From: Xenococcaceae cyanobacterium MO_188.B32
GTDB lineage: Bacteria > Cyanobacteriota > Cyanobacteriia > Cyanobacteriales > Xenococcaceae
Direction: 5' to 3'
Length of the DNA stretch: 54,334 bases
Assembly: GCA_030065635.1 (NCBI GenBank)
Contig: JASJDJ010000027.1
Coordinates: 1 to 54,334, forward strand
A program made the position numbers and the translations under genes. This document shows, piece after piece, positions 2,071-54,334 of the stretch (positions are counted from its first letter, which is position 1; every line of letters begins with the position of its first letter). A model generated the notes under the pieces. It saw only the letters and a program-made list of their open reading frames with translations, ran no database searches and had not been told where the DNA came from.

Positions 2071-2366
2071 CGTCTCAAATAATTGGGAGTGATTTCTGTA
2101 CGAAAGCTCTAGGATTAGACAAAGTCAAGGAAAATAAGCACGTATGCTAATTTAATCACTTCAGTATATCCCTTTACTTCACTTTTAAGTCATGATGAAT
2201 TGGAAAAGGCAAGAGGCAGACGGTTTAGTTATAGACCTGAGTTCGGGAGCACAATTATTTGTATTGTATATTGAGCGAGTATAGTTAAAGTCATCTTTCC
2301 TCCCCTGCTCCCTCTGCTCCCTCTGCTTCCAAAAAGTACACAATTAAATTTGCCCAGGTATTTAAT
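2071..2366. other. Intergenic stretch with pyrimidine-rich tandem repeat
   Basis: No convincing gene is seen. Positions 2297-2330 hold a degenerate tandem repeat of CTCCCTCTGCT-type units, the same low-complexity family found at 47850-47900 and 52001-52042. Promoters for the two divergent flanking genes should lie here, but none stands out. Confidence 0.5.
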
Positions 2367-3308
2367 ATGGCACTTCCTAGTTGTTCCCTCTGGATTTTAG
2401 TCGCTAGAACTGACATACCTTTTATGATGCAGACCATCCCTCATCTAATCAGAATGAGTAATTACCCCTTTCAAGAAAAGGTATTAGCCGTAGATACGGC
2501 TCCGTTATCGGGAGATAAAGTAAATCGTCCAGGAGTAGGAACCCTAGAAGAATTAAAAGCTCTGACCCGAAAGTTATTAGATGAGGGAATAGTCGATCGA
2601 GTTGTTGATATTGACTACAATCTAGACTATCAAAAGAGAGTATATCAAAAACACTTTGGTTTTCCTCTACGTCAAACTCATAACTATAAAGGCTATCCTA
2701 TTCTGGGAACGATATTCACGATCGAAGAAGCTCAAAGTGAATACATGCTGCACTTTGATAGCGATATGCTCCTTTATCAACAATCAGACTATAGTTGGAT
2801 TCAAAAGGCAATACAGTTAATGGAACAACATCCTGAAATTATCTCTTTACGTCCTTTAACAGGACCACCTACCCAAGATGGCACTATGTATCAACAAAAA
2901 TCATATCAGTACGATCCCGCTGGTTTTTATAAGTTTAAGTTTTTTGGCAGTAGAGTTTATTTAATCAATAAACTAACTTTTAATAAATTGCTACCTTTGC
3001 CGATTATTTGGCGACCTTACCGACAGAAAATTATTGCTGAACTTCCCCTAAAAATACAAACATTACTGAATTATACCTTCCATAAAGGTAAATTAGATTC
3101 TTGGGAAATAATGGTGTCGAAACAATTAGAAAGCTCTGAATATTTTCGAGGAGTTTTAGCTAGTACAAAGGCTTGGACATTGCATCCTAAAGACCGCAGT
3201 TCTAAGTTCATCAAAGCTCTACCAGAAATTATTAATCGTATAGAAACAGCTGACTATCCACCTGATCAAGCTGGTCATTATGATTTAATTTCCGAATTAT
3301 GGTTTTAA
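2367..3308 (+). CDS. Glycosyltransferase-like protein (GT-A fold suspected)
   Basis: 313 residues. The N-terminal part (about 8-60) looks like a nucleotide-sugar-binding Rossmann segment (WILVARTDIPFM, then KVLAVDTAPL). A short acidic motif, HFDSDMLLY near residue 131, matches the DxD metal/nucleotide site of GT-A glycosyltransferases. There is no signal peptide and no obvious membrane segment, so it is probably cytoplasmic. ATG follows the pyrimidine-rich repeat region, with a weak ribosome site. The sugar donor and acceptor are unknown. It is separated from the next gene by more than 500 bp, so it appears to be a single-gene unit. The glycosyltransferase assignment rests mainly on the DSD motif and general layout. 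Confidence 0.55.
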   Translation: MALPSCSLWILVARTDIPFMMQTIPHLIRMSNYPFQEKVLAVDTAPLSGDKVNRPGVGTLEELKALTRKLLDEGIVDRVVDIDYNLDYQKRVYQKHFGFPLRQTHNYKGYPILGTIFTIEEAQSEYMLHFDSDMLLYQQSDYSWIQKAIQLMEQHPEIISLRPLTGPPTQDGTMYQQKSYQYDPAGFYKFKFFGSRVYLINKLTFNKLLPLPIIWRPYRQKIIAELPLKIQTLLNYTFHKGKLDSWEIMVSKQLESSEYFRGVLASTKAWTLHPKDRSSKFIKALPEIINRIETADYPPDQAGHYDLISELWF

Positions 3309-3465
3309 AATCGGATTAGTTAGGGTTTACTGAATAACTTGATAACCTTGAGTAAATAAAGGTTGTAAGGATTTTGGGTACAGAAAAAAGTGAGGAGAAA
3401 AGGGCGAAAACCCCCTAAAATTGGTAAAAGACCCTTGCACTTTGCATCCTATCTAGCCAGAACAA

Positions 3466-3594
3466 ATGTATCGTAAATCTGATCGGCCTGCTCTGACTCC
3501 AGAAAAATTTGAATTACCTGTAGCGATCGAGTTATCATCCCAGAATCGTTGGGCACCAATAAATCTGTACAAATATAGACAGCCTTGTATTTAA
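3466..3594 (+). pseudogene. Remnant of an insertion-sequence transposase N-terminus
   Basis: A short frame begins MYRKSDRPALTPEKFELP and continues to a conserved-looking SSQNRW before running into the inverted repeat at 3569. From memory, this opening (MYxK...PxxFxLP...NRW) resembles the start of cyanobacterial DDE-type transposases. The rest of a transposase is absent. The resemblance is short, so the assignment is tentative. Confidence 0.35.
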
Positions 3595-3647
3595 GTTATC
3601 GGTAGGAGACGTTAAGTTAGCGGTTTCTTAAGGCTGTCTATATTTGT
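3569..3647. repeat. Inverted-repeat element E2
   Basis: ACAAATATAGACAGCCTT at 3569-3586 is perfectly repeated in reverse complement at 3630-3647 (18-bp arms, 43-nt loop). The loop itself holds a direct repeat, TTAAGTTA(T/G)CGGT, at about 3590 and 3612. The total span of 79 bp equals that of E1, although the arm sequences differ. Confidence 0.7.
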
Positions 3648-3875
3648 CTGGGATTTCTCTCGGGGTAGTCATGGCAGAGTTAATTCCTTTTTTGTCTTTA
3701 TTTCTTCAGAACTATAAATTCGGCTTAATTTCTGAATCTTTTATTATTAAAACTGATATTAAACCCTGCTTAATCACATAAAAATTTATCTTTTAATCAA
3801 GGTGATTCTTGTCAATTTTTTGGGCTTACTTATTCAGCAAACCCTAGTTAGAAACTTGTTAACTCAAAGACTATC

Positions 3876-4553
3876 ATGTCAACTACTAATGACCATCCCT
3901 ATATGCTTGTAGTGCAATTACCGAAAGAGTTGGACAGTGCAGATTATCGAGCTAGGATGACTATGCTTGTTGAGACCTACGGCGGTAAGCTACTTGCCAA
4001 TGTCTCGGACTCTGAGGTGGAATGCTTAGAAGCGATTACCCCACCAATGTCTATACTGGTGGCAGAGTTCCCAGAGCGAAACCCGATCCAAAAAATCTGG
4101 GAGGACGAGACTCATCAATCCGTGTTGGCAGAGGTAAGAAACCACCCTGAGACACTCATTTTGGCTGTGGCTGGTCTACCCTATGCTGGTTTACCCGATA
4201 TGCTAGAAATCCCTACAATTGCTTCGGTCACACCGCCAGGGGCTCGTGGTTCCAGGGCATATATGTTGATACAAGGCACAAGTATAGAAAAGGCGCGGAT
4301 GAACCAGTATCGAGACATCATCCTGCCGATGCTCAAAGAACAGGGAGCCTACTACACGGTATTCAACATCGAGGGCCATATCGATACGCTACATGGCACA
4401 TGGCAGCACGAAATCTTGGCTATCTCACGTTGGCCTAACTACTCCGCAGGACACGCTTTCTGGGATAGCGATCGTTATCAAAACATCGCTATCCCAATGC
4501 GCACTGGTGCGGGTCATTTTTTTGTTCACTTTTTCAATGGCTTAGCTGGGTAA
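3876..4553 (+). CDS. DUF1330-family protein with two related halves
   Basis: 225 residues. The two halves look like tandem DUF1330 (dimeric alpha-beta barrel) domains: residues about 8-95 and 125-220, the second ending in YQNIAIPMRTGAGHFF, close to the usual DUF1330 C-terminal signature. The biochemical role of DUF1330 proteins is not established. No signal peptide or membrane segment is seen, so it is likely cytoplasmic. Base use (for example GGCGCGG and CTGCCGATGCTC runs) appears richer in G+C than the neighbouring genes, which may indicate acquisition by transfer; this was judged by eye only. No obvious ribosome site precedes the ATG. It is flanked by a relic-filled region upstream and a palindromic repeat downstream. 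Confidence 0.6.
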   Translation: MSTTNDHPYMLVVQLPKELDSADYRARMTMLVETYGGKLLANVSDSEVECLEAITPPMSILVAEFPERNPIQKIWEDETHQSVLAEVRNHPETLILAVAGLPYAGLPDMLEIPTIASVTPPGARGSRAYMLIQGTSIEKARMNQYRDIILPMLKEQGAYYTVFNIEGHIDTLHGTWQHEILAISRWPNYSAGHAFWDSDRYQNIAIPMRTGAGHFFVHFFNGLAG

Positions 4554-4652
4554 GGAAGAGCAGAAAAGGATCGCAGTAGAGCGATCGCCGATCTGGTAGT
4601 TTGGGTAGCGCGAAGCAAAACCCAACATCATCAAATTCTGAGAGCAGTCACT

Positions 4653-4682
4653 TGTAGAGGTAGTCTGCGAACCGCCCCTACA
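4653..4682. repeat. TGTAG...CCCCTACA palindromic repeat
   Basis: TGTAG at 4653 pairs with CTACA ending at 4682, with GGT/ACC inside. It belongs to the TGTAGGGGC/GCCCCTACA repeat type also present at 12839-12868 and 38562-38589. It lies between convergent genes. Confidence 0.5.
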
Positions 4683-4691
4683 GGTGAATAA

Positions 4692-5717
4692 TTATCTATT
4701 CCCTGTTTCCTGCATATATTCTGTCAATAAAGAAGCGGGAGGACGATCGTATTGCCAAGCAAAAGCATGACGAAAAGACGATTCCTGACAAGCTTGTAGT
4801 TGCCTAAAATCAATCACATCTTGAGTCAATAAATTTTCGTATTCAAAAGGTAAACGAACGTTATGCAAACCAGCATTATCGGTACAGATAGAAATATCTA
4901 CTCCTGCTGCAAAACAGCGTTCAAATACTACTTTGAGTTCAGATAGGTTTTCTAAAGTGCCTGTTTTTAAATAGGTAGTAGGACAAACTTCTAAACACTG
5001 TTTCCGTTGGGCTACTTCGGGTAACAATTCTGGATAATGCAGGGGAATTTGAATACCATGACCGATACGCATTAAATAAGGTAATAATTCTGGATAACAA
5101 CCATCAGTAGTTTCATAAACATGACCAGTAGTTTTTAAGCCCAAAGCGAGAGCATATTTATATAAACTAACAAATTCGTCCAAACGCTTTTGGTAGTGAG
5201 CATCTCCTCCCGCTAAATCTACAGCACAGACATATTCTTTAGAGTTAGCAGCAAGCTCGACGATCGCTTTATTAACTTCATAGGGCAGTCGAGAGTGCAT
5301 ACACAAAATTTGGCTGGTAACAATAGGATACTCTTTTACCCGACTTGCCTGACCGACAATCTCGACAATCTTTGCCATTTGTTCGATCCGTTCGGTTTGA
5401 CTCAAAGCTTCGTCGGTACGAAGATAAGGAGTATACCGCAGTTCCAAATAAGCCAAATTTTCAAAAATATACGCACCCCGAATGAGGCGATAGATAAAAT
5501 ACGGTAGAGTTTCTGCCGTTTGTACGCTTTCTACTAGAGTATGTAATTCTAAATATTCATCGAGAGTATTGCGCGATCGAGTATAAAACTCTTCAAATTC
5601 TGGATAATGAGGAAATCTGGCTGCCAAGTGGGTATCATGACGTTGACAATATCTCCAGAGAATCCTTGGTACAACTGCGCCACCAAGATGGCGATGTAAA
5701 TCAGCGTGTAAAGCCAC
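4692..5717 (-). CDS. Adenosine deaminase-like amidohydrolase
   Basis: 341 residues, about the length of bacterial adenosine deaminases. The metal-binding HxH is H8-R-H10 in ADLHRHLGG. Further expected sites are GHVYE (H199, E202), RIGHG (217-221) and the metal-binding Asp in CTDNAG (D280). The fold is a TIM barrel acting in the cytoplasm in purine salvage, converting adenosine to inosine. Two places differ from classical enzymes: the usual TDD is TDN (N281), and the usual CPTSN is CPTTY (245-249). The substrate could therefore be a related adenine compound. The start ATG is right at the first strand, as in the family. It stands alone, with the transaminase gene 250 bp upstream in the same direction. 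Confidence 0.8.
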   Translation of the reverse strand: MALHADLHRHLGGAVVPRILWRYCQRHDTHLAARFPHYPEFEEFYTRSRNTLDEYLELHTLVESVQTAETLPYFIYRLIRGAYIFENLAYLELRYTPYLRTDEALSQTERIEQMAKIVEIVGQASRVKEYPIVTSQILCMHSRLPYEVNKAIVELAANSKEYVCAVDLAGGDAHYQKRLDEFVSLYKYALALGLKTTGHVYETTDGCYPELLPYLMRIGHGIQIPLHYPELLPEVAQRKQCLEVCPTTYLKTGTLENLSELKVVFERCFAAGVDISICTDNAGLHNVRLPFEYENLLTQDVIDFRQLQACQESSFRHAFAWQYDRPPASLLTEYMQETGNR

Positions 5718-5964
5718 TTCTAACTCCTTAAAATAGATATTAATAAACTCAAGCTCGAGCCAAATCTCTGAAGATTCTTCAATTCATTAGCCAACAGCTA
5801 ATAGCTTTCTTTAAGACTATTTCCTATTACTATAGACATAATTACTAGATAAAATCAGTCTATTTATATTAGTTGCGATAAATAATAATTCTTGACAACT
5901 ACTACTTCATCCTCTTTGATTTAATCTTTGCCTACTCCCTATTCATGCCTACTAAAGATTTCTG

Positions 5965-7224
5965 CTACACCCCTTCAACTACTTTTGCCAATCGTTGCAT
6001 AGCAGTAGTAATTTCTGATTCTGTTTCTGTAAGACTAATGCGGATACATTCTTGCTTATGTTGCCATTCTTCTCTTAAACCAGGGAAGAAACTACCCCCA
6101 GGTACAACTATTACCCCAACTTTTTTCAATTCTTGGTATAAATCCCAGTCAGTTATCGGTAAATCTTTTAGCCACAACCAAGCAAAAATTGCTCCTTCCC
6201 CTCGATGTAAAAACCAGGGTAAATCTTTGGGCATTAATTCGGCTAAAGTATTTTCTAAAATCTCTATTTTGCGTTGATAGTGGGGACGAATAACATTAGT
6301 AGCTATTTCTGCTAGTTTACCAGAAGAAATTGCCCTAGCTGCGATCGCTTGTCCATAACGGGGAGAATGAATACAAGCATTAGTCTGAAAAGATTGCAGC
6401 ACTTCAATTAATTGAGGATCGCCAATAGCTATACCTATTCTTTCTCCTGGTAATCCTGCTTTCGACAAACTCATACAGTGAAGAATATTATCTCCAAATT
6501 GAGGTGTCATAGCCGTAAAATTTAAGGCAGGGAAAGGTGGTGCGTAAGCCGAATCGACTAAAACTGGTACATTGTTAACCCAAGCTAAAGCAGCAATCTT
6601 ACTTACTTCTTCGTCTGTTAGAACATTGCCTGTGGGATTACAGGGACGAGAAAAAATAACGCAACCAGTACTATTATCTATTTGTAGTTGGCTAAAATCA
6701 GGACGGTATTTAAAACGGTGTCTCTGTTCATCTATATCTAAAGTTGGTTTATAAGAAACTACCGCTTCGGGAGTCAGACTAACTCCACCATAGCCAGTAT
6801 AGTCAGGGCTGAGGGGAAGAACTATCTGCTTTAATTCTCCTTCTTGGGTATAACCCCCAAATGCATTAGCAGCGTAAAAATATAGTGCCTGGGAACCAGG
6901 AGTAATAAGGATATTGCGCTCGCTCAACTCTAGTCCATAACGCCGATTAAAATCGGTAGCAATAGCTTCAATTAGGGGTGTATATCCTTGAGATGAACCA
7001 TAACGGCATACTACTTCTCCATACTCCTTGCTTGCCAACAAATCCATCGTACAATCTCGCCATAATTGTTCTACTTCTGGCAAAATTACAGGATTTCCCG
7101 CACTGAGATTGATAAAATCTTGTCCTGCACCAGTTCTCAAGGTTTCAATAATGTCTTTCATAATTGCTCTAACTCCCGTGAGTTGAGACATTTGCTTACC
7201 AAATTGAGAGAGTGCAGGATTCAT
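5965..7224 (-). CDS. avtA: Valine-pyruvate transaminase
   Basis: 419 residues, a fold-type I PLP aminotransferase that exchanges the amino group between valine and pyruvate (or alanine and 2-oxoisovalerate). The N-terminus MNPALSQFGKQMS is typical of AvtA and fixes the start at 7224 (an upstream ATG at 7251 would add nine hydrophobic residues not seen in the family). Landmarks are NLSAGNP (39-45), CNPTGN (195-200) for PLP contact, and the Schiff-base lysine K255 in SLSKAGLPGERIG. The C-terminus has the usual RISLTE arginine contact. It is cytoplasmic and likely monocistronic. Confidence 0.9.
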   Translation of the reverse strand: MNPALSQFGKQMSQLTGVRAIMKDIIETLRTGAGQDFINLSAGNPVILPEVEQLWRDCTMDLLASKEYGEVVCRYGSSQGYTPLIEAIATDFNRRYGLELSERNILITPGSQALYFYAANAFGGYTQEGELKQIVLPLSPDYTGYGGVSLTPEAVVSYKPTLDIDEQRHRFKYRPDFSQLQIDNSTGCVIFSRPCNPTGNVLTDEEVSKIAALAWVNNVPVLVDSAYAPPFPALNFTAMTPQFGDNILHCMSLSKAGLPGERIGIAIGDPQLIEVLQSFQTNACIHSPRYGQAIAARAISSGKLAEIATNVIRPHYQRKIEILENTLAELMPKDLPWFLHRGEGAIFAWLWLKDLPITDWDLYQELKKVGVIVVPGGSFFPGLREEWQHKQECIRISLTETESEITTAMQRLAKVVEGV

Positions 7225-18855: not shown

Positions 18856-19494
18856 TTACTTTGCTTGTTCCGTAGCCAGCTTAATTCCCAAACCAATAAA
18901 AATCACTCCTGTTATTTTTCTAGCCATATTTATCAACTTAGTTTGGGAACGAACAAAACCAGAAGCCTTAGCTGATAATAAAGCAAGAAATAAAGTCCAT
19001 AAAGTATCAGTAGTGATAAATAAACAACCTAAAAAGAAAAATGACAATACTTTATAAGTACTAGCTGGATCGACAAATTGCGGTAATAATGCCAAAAAAA
19101 ATAGAGCAACTTTTGGATTGAGAATATTAGTTAAAATTCCCTGATAATAAATCGTCCATAGACTTTTAGCTTCTGCTATAACCTTAATATCTTTTGAGGA
19201 ACTATCATTAATGAACATTTGGATACCCAAATATATTAAATACACAGCACCAATCCATTTAACAATAGTAAATGCTATTGCTGAGGTGGCTAAAATAGCT
19301 GACAGTCCCAGTGCAGCAGCAGTAGTGTGTAAAAATAAGCCTGTGTTTATGCCCAAAACTGATATAACACCAGCTTTTCTTCCCTGGGCTATGCTACGAG
19401 CGATAATATACAAAGTATCGGCACCAGGTAATAAATTTAGTGAAATTGCTGCTACCAAAAAAACAGAAATATTTTGTGTACCAAACATAGTCAA
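18856..19494 (-). CDS. LysE/RhtB-family amino-acid exporter
   Basis: 212 residues with six hydrophobic segments. The LysE-superfamily N-terminal signature is LLPGADTLYIIARSIAQGRKAG (about 21-42), and ILNPKVALFFLALLPQFV lies near the middle, both typical of RhtB homoserine/threonine-type exporters. It is an inner-membrane protein, probably exporting an amino acid or derivative. Monocistronic, with about 115 bp to the divergent devA. Confidence 0.88.
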   Translation of the reverse strand: MTMFGTQNISVFLVAAISLNLLPGADTLYIIARSIAQGRKAGVISVLGINTGLFLHTTAAALGLSAILATSAIAFTIVKWIGAVYLIYLGIQMFINDSSSKDIKVIAEAKSLWTIYYQGILTNILNPKVALFFLALLPQFVDPASTYKVLSFFFLGCLFITTDTLWTLFLALLSAKASGFVRSQTKLINMARKITGVIFIGLGIKLATEQAK

Positions 19495-20714: not shown

Positions 20715-20882
20715 AAAATAGAAAAGATGATTTTTTAGTCAAGAGAATTATTAGTCCAAAACCAGCAAAAAAAGTTTAGTAGATAAGTTAGTATCAGTAA
20801 CTAACAACTATCTCGGTAGGGAAGAGCTCCTTCCGTATTATATTGCATTAAATTTTGTTTCTAGATAATTATTGAGGCTTTT

Positions 20883-52072: not shown

Positions 52073-52261
52073 TTATCCTTTAGTACTGAGATACTGTTCT
52101 CTTTTCAGTATAATTCCCCAACCGAAAGCCATAAACATACCGACAATCGAGAAAGGTTCGGGTACAGAAGCTCTAGCTGTATTAAAATCTAACTCTACAG
52201 TGATATTAAAAGGAGAACATTGTTCGCTCGTACTTATAGTTGGGCTAGACGAAAGAATCAC
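52073..52261 (-). pseudogene. C-terminal fragment of a PEP-CTERM protein
   Basis: 62 codons (GTG). The last 27 residues, SVPEPFSIVGMFMAFGWG plus KREQ, are a PEP-CTERM sorting signal: PEP, hydrophobic helix, basic end. An in-frame TGA lies just upstream (near 52267), and the group II intron begins 16 bp further, so the remainder of the protein is missing. Confidence 0.65.
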
Positions 52262-53131
52262 ACGTCATTAATGCGTGGTGCGATTCGTTCATACTAAATC
52301 CTCTTAAGAGGAGGGATGTATGGCTTTCCAGTTAAGTAACCCTTCTGGGTTGAGTTCGCACTTAAATCCTTAACTGAAATGATAACTTGTATTCCTTCAT
52401 GGTGAGGTGATTAAATAAAAACCAAGTCCATGCCTCCTTGTGCGGGAGGAAAAGCACAGAGCGTCCCCCTCGGTGACGAGGGCGAGAAGTTTCCCTTACA
52501 TCTGGGATGACAACCCAGATGTAATATGCGGGACTGAAAGCGGACAGCGCGATAATTGCTGAAAACGTCTAACCGCTAGCACGAGTCTCATAACCGACCT
52601 GGACTAAGGATGTATATCTAAGGAAAAGGAAATCGTGGGGTAGATAAACAAATCATCTACCGAACCGTCCAAAAATGCACAGCAGGGGATATAAGCTAGT
52701 GGGTAATACCACACCCTGCGTCTGAAATATCAGACAGAACAATGATATATAACTTTCACGCTGAGTTATATCGCACAAATCAGTTCACACGGGCGGAAAG
52801 ATGAACCCTAAAGGACTCAAATCAACTGAATACTTAACTATTCAGCAAAGGAATACAGGAACGAAGTAAACCAATCTCATCCCCAGACTAGCTGGTAGGT
52901 CTCGTCAAAACCGTATGGTGAGATTAGGGAAGATGGGTCAAGAAGCGATCTGCCTAACTCGAAATGACGAGTAATGCTTGAAAAGAGATGGGGCGGGAAT
53001 GGGGGCTTCAAAGAAAAGTTGTTAACTCTTGCTTCCAGATCGACCAATTAATAAAGCCCCCCTCCCGGTGCCCAGGAAATGCAGACGTGACCCGCAATAT
53101 ACCAATACTAAAGGCTCAAGTAGTAGCAAAT

Positions 53132-53356
53132 ATGCCTAATACAGATTTAACAACGAATACTGTGGGATGGAGAGATATCAACTGGCGAAAAGTCGAAAGA
53201 TATATCTTTAAGTTACAAAAGCGCATTTACGTAGCATCTCGTCGTGGAGATGTAAAACAAGTCCGAAAACTCCAAAAAACATTGATGAGGTCGTGGTCTA
53301 ATAAGGTATTAGCGGTACGGCGGGTAACTCAAGACAATCGAGGCAGTGCGACCTGA
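53132..53356 (+). pseudogene. Intron 1 reverse transcriptase, N-terminus only
   Basis: The frame MPNTDLTTNTVGWRDINW to RRVTQDNRG matches the N-terminus (before RT0) of cyanobacterial group II intron reverse transcriptases. At GGC A the sequence enters intron 2 (GTGCGACC), and the frame stops nine bases later. The expected next residues, KNTAGVDG, are missing here and should follow intron 2. If intron 2 splices precisely, the gene could still be expressed. Confidence 0.8.
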
Positions 53357-54334
53357 AAGGTCGATTAAATTGAGACTCCGCAGTCTCTCTGGGATTTCTA
53401 CCCCAGACCTTCATAGAGGAATCCGTAGATAACGGTACGTCACGGCTTAGTAGGTAACGAAACAGTCGGAGTGCAGACGCTAAAAGTAGCCAAAGCTGCC
53501 AGGGTTAGGCAGTGAGGAGCAAGGAGGAAGGATGTAGAAGGATGAACGTAGTCTAAGGTATTGATTAAATCACGTCACTTGTCAACGAGCTAAATAACTC
53601 CTGATAAGCTCGAAACCAAAACGGTAAATAGGTGGTTGTTATATTTGTCCTTTTATAACAACGTAGAAACAAAATTCCTATCGTGAAATAGATACCCGTC
53701 CTAACTGCACCAGAAACTTTAATTGACACAACAGGGAAAACCCCACAGAGTCTAGAAAGAAGGTCGAATCTTCTAGTAAGCCAAGAGTAATCAAAGCCGA
53801 ACTCTCTGGGGGGCAAAGGATGAGTGAGAAAGCGAATGTCGCCTCGTAACAAGGTGAATAGAGGTTCAAAATTTGCCTCTGAACGAAAGTAATAGCTGAA
53901 TTCACTTGGGTCATATACGAAATAAAACCTATCTCAGGAAATGAATCCTCAGGAAAAGTTTGATACATCAAATAGATGTAAATGGACAGAGGAAACGACT
54001 TTCTGACTGGAATCAGATTAACTGGAAGAAAGTCAGAAAGATTGTTAATAACCTCAGAAAGCGAATATTTCGTGCTAGAAAGCTTGAGCAATGGAAGCAA
54101 CTAAGAAGGTTGCAGAAATTGTTCTTAAAATCCTACGCAAACCTACTACTCGCAGTACGACAAATTACTCAGCAAAATAACGGACGAAATACAGCAGGAG
54201 TGGATAAGGAGGTATTTAACACCCCTGAAAAGAGAGTAAAACTTGTCAATAATTGGAAGGAATTAACTGCCTCTCCTACCAGGAGAGTATACATCCCAAA
54301 ATCTAACGGCAAGAAGCGTCCCCTTGGTATTCCC
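53346..54334 (+). mobile_element. Group II intron 2 (nested), 5' part
   Basis: The 5' end GTGCGACCTGAAAGGTCG fits the GUGCG consensus, and domain I features are visible (GGTACGTCACGG, and TCGGAGTGCAGACGC). The non-coding part is 595 bases, a normal size before the ORF. The encoded reverse transcriptase starts at 53941. It differs from intron 1's protein, so this is not a tandem copy of the same element. The 3' end is outside the window. Confidence 0.8.
53941..54334 (+). pseudogene. Intron 2 reverse transcriptase (LtrA-like), frameshifted near the start, open at the window end
   Basis: The first frame reads MNPQEKFDTSNRCKWTEETTF and hits TGA at 54004. One base on, the other frame continues DWNQINWKKVRKIVNNLRKR, then QITQQNNGRNTAGVDK, then RRVYIPKSNGKKRPLGIP (RT0 region) to the end. 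The shift is one extra base at 54004 or so. The RT would be non-functional unless translated by frameshift or supplied in trans. Confidence 0.75.

Follow-up and report, generated by a model that had tools for sequence, protein, structure and literature searches.

Organization of the Locus

The stretch of DNA considered here (the window) comprises 54,334 bases and constitutes an entire contig, C176, of a 6.39 Mb genome that is assembled in 281 contigs. At its 3′ end, the 5′ parts of two group II introns lie one inside the other (Table 1). Both carry 5′ ends of the GTGCG type (GUGYG-like) on the same strand, GTGCGATTCGTT at 52278 and GTGCGACCTGAAAGG at 53346, exactly as given in a first-pass annotation made from the sequence alone. 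The first 716 nt of the outer intron (intron 1) share 75-80% DNA identity with introns from a number of further genomes belonging to the family. Its reverse transcriptase (RT) gene is read from the ATG at 53132 for 71 codons, ending with R-V-T-Q-D-N-R-G, and this part corresponds to the N-terminal domain RVT_N of Pfam, which is cut at profile position 59 of 83. The inner intron (intron 2) enters after the first base of codon 72, a lysine codon; the annotation had placed the interruption directly after D-N-R-G, which is borne out at T-Q-D-N-R-G plus one base of the Lys codon. Read on into the unspliced inner intron, the outer frame continues with G-S-A-T and a stop, giving a stub of 74 residues. 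The insertion in the outer ribozyme is limited to the ORF region, which, following established group II anatomy, we take to be domain IV. A host gene in sense orientation was not found for the outer intron. Adjoining its 5′ side, on the opposite strand, is a frame with a PEP-CTERM-like end (window 52073-52261, minus strand; recognized by eye), which is probably a gene remnant.

Table 1: Features of the two nested introns at the 3′ end of the window.
Feature	Coordinates	Strand	Basis
Outer (host) group II intron, 5′ part, from the 5′ end GTGCGATTCGTT to the first part of the RT gene	52278..53345	+	DNA matches in relatives
Outer RT (IEP), part 1: 71 codons and one base of the split Lys codon	53132..53345	+	Pfam RVT_N
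Predicted IBS1 of the inner intron, GAGGCA, within outer RT codons	53340..53345	+	Pairing with the EBS1 loop
5′ part of the inner group II intron, cut off by the contig end	53346..54334	+	5′ end and likeness to relatives' inner introns
EBS1 loop (TGTCCT) predicted for the inner intron, pairing with IBS1 at 5 of 6 positions	53646..53651	+	Pairing
Inner RT (IEP), N-terminal 129-130 residues	53945..54334	+	Likeness to relatives' inner RTs
139 bases exactly repeated at the start of contig C272	54195..54333	+	Exact repeat

The piece of the inner RT from 53960 to the window end matches group II RT with an E value of 5.4e-12. That the two RTs are unlike each other, as had been claimed, is evident from a comparison with the inner RTs of two relatives, G003 and G013, to which the N-terminus of the window's inner RT is 84-88% identical, whereas that of the outer RT is 42-45% identical. 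The inner RTs of these relatives carry all four domains, that is, RVT_N, RVT_1, GIIM, and HNH; the own genome shows the inner RT as the N-terminal 129 and the C-terminal 49 residues only.

Probable Resumption of the Outer Frame on a Second Contig

Since the window is an entire contig, there is no direct continuation within it, and Rfam returned no domain V within the window. The resumption of the outer frame behind the 3′ end of the inner intron, which had been predicted, is encountered on the minus strand of contig C121 of the same genome, which would represent the other side of the same locus. There, the C-terminal 49 residues of an inner-type RT, with 88% identity to its counterpart in G003, are followed by an inner-type domain V/VI at 20853 to 20776 (minus), which ends with CCTACCCGAC, and AGAAGACAGCAGGAGTGGATGG comes directly after. 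If GGCA of the window is joined to AGAAGACAGCAGGAGTGGATGG of C121, G-K-K-T-A-G-V-D-G is read in frame. The annotation had named a missing resumed RT frame, or a missing domain V for one of the introns, as grounds against its reading; on C121, the frame is open for 553 codons, and two RF00029 domain V hits are present at 20776-20853 and 19018-19095, with 50.0 and 49.4 bits, respectively (gathering score 40), the second one standing after the resumed outer RT. This second part of the outer RT carries the domains RVT_1, GIIM, and HNH (RT, maturase, and HNH). In the uninterrupted introns of G026, G024, G021, and G006, the positions of the two halves are separated by exactly one codon. The same RT site is empty in three other RTs of the own genome, on contigs C123, C202, and C232; the RT of C123 is internally deleted and lies in a tnpB-like gene (by eye).

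Insertions at the Same Codon in Other Genomes

In total, 27 genomes of the family, the own one included, were searched. The window junction is matched in G003, which belongs to the same family, with 83% identity over 1,167 nt; a contig of G003 is identical, over the stretch compared, to one in the Xenococcaceae assembly MO_234.B1, by which kinship the own genome is cyanobacterial. When the exon beside the inner 5′ end was read across the loci in hand (68 rows, some of which are chance motif matches), seven rows from six genomes were found to lie at this RT codon, namely, the window, G003, G013, two in G012, Okeania SIO3B5, and Richelia UBA3308; the loci had been chosen for their likeness to the inner RT, and the share lying inside other introns is thus no unbiased rate. 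All seven insertions read G-S-A-T-stop into the inner intron. Both inner junctions lie within single contigs in G003, G013, Okeania SIO3B5, and Richelia UBA3308, the last one with a run of N inside. G013 contains a whole twintron on a 138-kb contig (L156), with the outer intron at 2134-6782 (4,649 nt) and the inner one at 2968-5363; both RT frames are open, and both domain Vs and both outer ends are within this one contig. Among the four readable 3′ junctions beside that of C121, G013 alone has both frames open. In G003, the outer RT resumes after the inner intron but stops after GIPTM, in Okeania, the inner RT frame is broken, and the Richelia contig, apart from its run of N, has a short inner frame and little outer RT sequence.

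The first 550 nt of the inner introns are 84-93% identical (five introns; Richelia over about 250 nt), and the last 60 amino acids of the outer RT N-termini of the seven hosts are 35-82% identical; in G012, two different host RTs (62% identical) are invaded at the same place. Such a range of hosts is explained by repeated homing, but not by a single nest having been passed on as a whole. Among the 47 inner-like RTs placed in a tree, those of the RT site, five in number, cluster in a single clade with a support of 100/98, which is recovered in 200 out of 200 bootstrap trees; the row of the window is 31% filled, being built from its two end pieces, and the G012 copies are omitted as too short. 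The RT-site inner introns thus look like a lineage homing into the RT genes of other group II introns, and the overall picture is wider than the single twintron that had been annotated, the reading of which as a group II twintron is supported.

Beyond the loci in hand, a class-wide scan for the 5′ junction pattern gave matches in 7 of 388 sampled genomes, the sample not containing G003 and G013; the six matches beyond the window have 1-2 mismatches, and none of them lies at the RT site. The reversed control matched in 3 genomes, and several of the matches may be due to chance, while one of them (L170) might represent a genuine intron at another site. A scan of IMG/VR with the inner RT confirmed nothing, and among plasmids the best match has 63% identity to the inner RT, falling outside the clade as judged by identity.

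Target Recognition

If the EBS1 hairpin loop is compared with the last six exon bases, all of 11 introns located with strict anchors form 5 or 6 pairs of 6, seven of them all six. The mean score is 12.5, as against 8.2 (s.d. 0.8) for swapped exons, and none of 500 shuffles is as high. Four of the 11 are RT-site introns; two of these have six pairs, and two, including that of the window, have five. The EBS1 loop differs with the host, TGCCTT of G003 fitting AAGGCA and TCCCGG of Okeania fitting CTGGGA. With looser anchors, 21 introns give a mean of 9.9 versus 7.9 (0 of 1,000 shuffles as high), and 18 of the 21 are at 5 or 6 of 6 versus an average of 16.1 when shuffled; several introns of this looser set are mis-anchored, and 38 further entries were dropped. 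For EBS2, taking the best of three offsets (exon -13 to -8), the introns score 12.4 with their own and 9.9 with swapped exons, with 0 of 300 as high.

Comparison with Known Nested Introns

An intron inside an intron, with the host resuming behind it, is present on one contig in G013, and in the own genome it would extend across C176 and C121. Introns of this kind are already known, as is homing into group II intron ORFs; the present case is ordinary as a kind and somewhat more than that as a lineage. In Methanosarcina acetivorans, RT-encoding group II introns reportedly home into related intron ORFs, to go by the title of work by Dai and Zimmerly from 2003. Nested arrays of up to five introns, formed in one archaeon by homing into other group II introns, are described for Methanosarcina in a review (PMC4424553). 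Inner introns that recur at one position of related RT genes are likewise seen here, where a single codon accounts for seven junctions in six genomes; compared with that review's description, however, one clade uses one codon of differing outer introns across cyanobacterial families.

In Thermosynechococcus elongatus, according to the report on TeI4::TeI3 (PMC2882425), identical ORF-less inner copies are located between two start codons that are five codons apart, and the IEP could be made without splicing. Common to both systems are the cyanobacterial host and one fixed insertion place in the IEP region of several introns. In contrast to TeI4::TeI3, the present inner intron is not an ORF-less element between two start codons; it encodes an RT itself and interrupts the outer RT within codon 72, so that a whole IEP requires splicing. 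The pair T.e.I7/T.e.I8 of Trichodesmium erythraeum (PMC4649490) was found to splice sequentially, the inner intron before the host intron, and resembles the present case in that a cyanobacterium combines two introns that are unlike each other and both encode an IEP. There, the inner intron lies 154 nt into the host (from coordinates), which itself disrupts a protein gene, whereas here the inner one begins 1,068 nt from the 5′ end of the host intron, within the RT gene. Plastid twintrons of Porphyridium purpureum with mat1f (PMC4476101) have one IEP-bearing inner intron at the same domain IV site of two outer introns and are thus alike in the nesting of one IEP-bearing inner type at the same site of different outer introns; there, the outer IEPs are truncated remnants in the plastid of one species, whereas here, both in G013 and in the window by way of C121, excision would give back the outer frame. 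An engineered system in which a nested group II intron controls an ORF has been described previously (PMC4801052). In the literature titles and abstracts searched, with subscription journals mostly outside the coverage, no description of the RT-site clade was found. Judging from the sequences compared, what is added here would be the RT-domain codon, the restored frame, and the use of this codon by one clade across cyanobacterial families.

Proposed Course of Events and Alternative Explanations

Very probably, the locus is a group II twintron that was formed by site-specific retrohoming, with the inner lineage targeting a conserved stretch of RT genes. The target would be Q-x-N-x-G, followed by the Lys codon, split as A and AR, and by K/N-T-A/C-G-V/I-D; it would be recognized by EBS1/IBS1 and EBS2/IBS2 pairing, with insertion occurring after the first base of the Lys codon. 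By this insertion, the inner 5′ end GTGCGACCTGA would put an in-frame stop into the outer RT (S-A-T-stop in seven out of seven cases). The inner intron would excise itself from the precursor using its own maturase, and this excision would restore the outer RT frame exactly by joining GGCA to AGAAGACA. The outer maturase would be made only from RNA freed of the inner intron, after which the outer intron would splice and move. Since the unspliced RNA reads S-A-T-stop, intron 2 would have to be spliced before the maturase of intron 1 can be made; the outer ribozyme is interrupted in the ORF region only, and its catalysis may hence not strictly need inner splicing, as its protein would. The nesting, the restored frame, both domain Vs, the recurrent use of the site, and the pairing are seen in the sequence itself; splicing, its order, present mobility, and the unity of C176 and C121 as one locus we infer.

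It is rather unlikely, even if conceivable, that the nesting is real but dead in the own genome, that is, that a disrupted inner or outer RT precludes useful splicing and the locus is decaying debris. Such a reading would find support in contig C272, which repeats the 139 inner-RT bases of Table 1 exactly and whose frame runs to GIPTV-stop, where another element begins. C272 as an intact continuation of the window is ruled out by this GIPTV-stop leading into an element with serine-recombinase-like ORFs (by eye), and it may represent a second allele or copy, which is broken. Pointing in the same direction, the possible start codon ATG of the relatives' inner RTs reads AGG in the window, where TTG 53960 or another position would have to serve as the start; the RT hits of the own genome do not include the central portion of the inner RT (about residues 133-515), and the copies of G003 and Okeania have disrupted RT frames. 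These points are opposed by the length and the RT, maturase, and HNH domains of the open frame on C121, by the two open frames of G013, and by the dN/dS of part 2 on C121, which is 0.116-0.139 versus three intact relatives and thereby similar to the 0.124 between two intact ones; at a dS of about 1, this ratio has little power, and the C121 outer RT would show no sign of decay. For the invaded RT pair of G013 and Okeania, dS is saturated, and a dN/dS ratio is not given.

Clearly improbable is the assumption that C176 belongs to one nested copy and C121 to another, in which case the window locus might lack a 3′ half of the C121 type. The assembly is without a join between the two contigs, and gene order is not kept, the genes that flank the two halves, ttcA and a pair assigned by eye as glutaredoxin/glutathione synthetase, not being adjacent in the relatives looked at, which renders synteny uninformative on this link; moreover, the genome contains many intron fragments, several of them at contig ends. 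Nevertheless, the 281 contigs yielded a single 5′ half and a single 3′ half for this site, for which reason C176 and C121 are taken to be one locus. In a DNA search with the inner intron, inner-type 5′ ends were found in the own genome on C176 and C4 only, that of C4 being outside RT genes, and among 14 domain V hits of the own genome, C121's alone precedes a resumed RT (60 nt read by eye). Furthermore, both halves match the same uninterrupted G026 intron at the same level, part 1 (C176) with 82.5% identity (80 amino acids) and part 2 (C121) with 82.0% (499 amino acids). Even if the assumption were true, both copies would still be twintrons at this site. That there is no nest at all, but an intron next to an unrelated piece of sequence, or a junction created by chimeric assembly, might be thought of for a draft assembly with only 989 window bases from the junction onward, yet it can be dismissed, being contradicted already by the relatives, with the same 5′ junction in five other genomes and both junctions in single contigs in four, and by the pairing of the target with the EBS1 loop.

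In this arrangement, the splicing of one element would gate the protein of another, and the related copies in different hosts are natural replicates in which ordered splicing, the choice of target, and what invasion costs the outer intron can be tested. The data also point to a niche, the RT genes of other introns, that is kept by one lineage across cyanobacterial families. More tentatively, the inner intron might be a specialized hyperparasite, that is, a horizontally spreading clade residing solely in a conserved codon of other introns' RT genes, with EBS1 adapted per host; it would hold the mobility of its host hostage, given that the outer maturase would be made only after inner splicing, and a second, more distant clade would do likewise at Y-A-D-D.

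Further Insertions in and near RT Genes

In the tree of inner-like RTs described above, a second group of three rows (L103, L107, and L110) has its insertion after the catalytic Y-A-D-D of RT genes; one row has a very long branch, and its join is flagged as doubtful. Distant relatives of the inner intron are located just after the Y-A-D-D codons in L103, L107/L163, and L110, and at other RT sites in L102 and L198. Group II intron sequence occurs within 240 nt of 20 out of 48 classified insertions, the RT match reaching the junction in 11 of these 20.

The element that interrupts C272 recurs with a common end, TAGGCAYAATGCACCTCCTTCAAGTAGG, and interrupts RT genes after GIPT(V/M), its locations being L004:147 (C272), L155:5745, L206:1294, and L228 (one groEL-like). 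These four places occur in 3 of 388 genomes of the order and share the core CCGACGGTG, or CCGACGATG in G003. A restriction of this element to RT genes was considered and rejected, one of the four places following a groEL-like frame (by eye).

At two loci of the own genome, L044 and L045 (C128 and C139), the 3′ end of an intron is followed directly by an apparent 3′ half of domain V plus domain VI of another intron, which by eye looks like an intron inserted inside the domain V of another, the hits having 23 bits, below the gathering score. In Chlorogloea purpurea JP212 (L083:4331-4380), three intron-like 5′ ends, GTGCGATTCG, GCGCGACC, and GTGCGACT, follow each other 19 nt apart, each inside the previous one, possibly constituting a triple nest. 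Finally, at L160 (G001:C236), a 5′ ribozyme of the outer type is fused to a 3′ part of the inner type with a deleted RT, followed by domain V and by an outer RT resuming elsewhere (by eye), an arrangement that looks like a recombinant nest.
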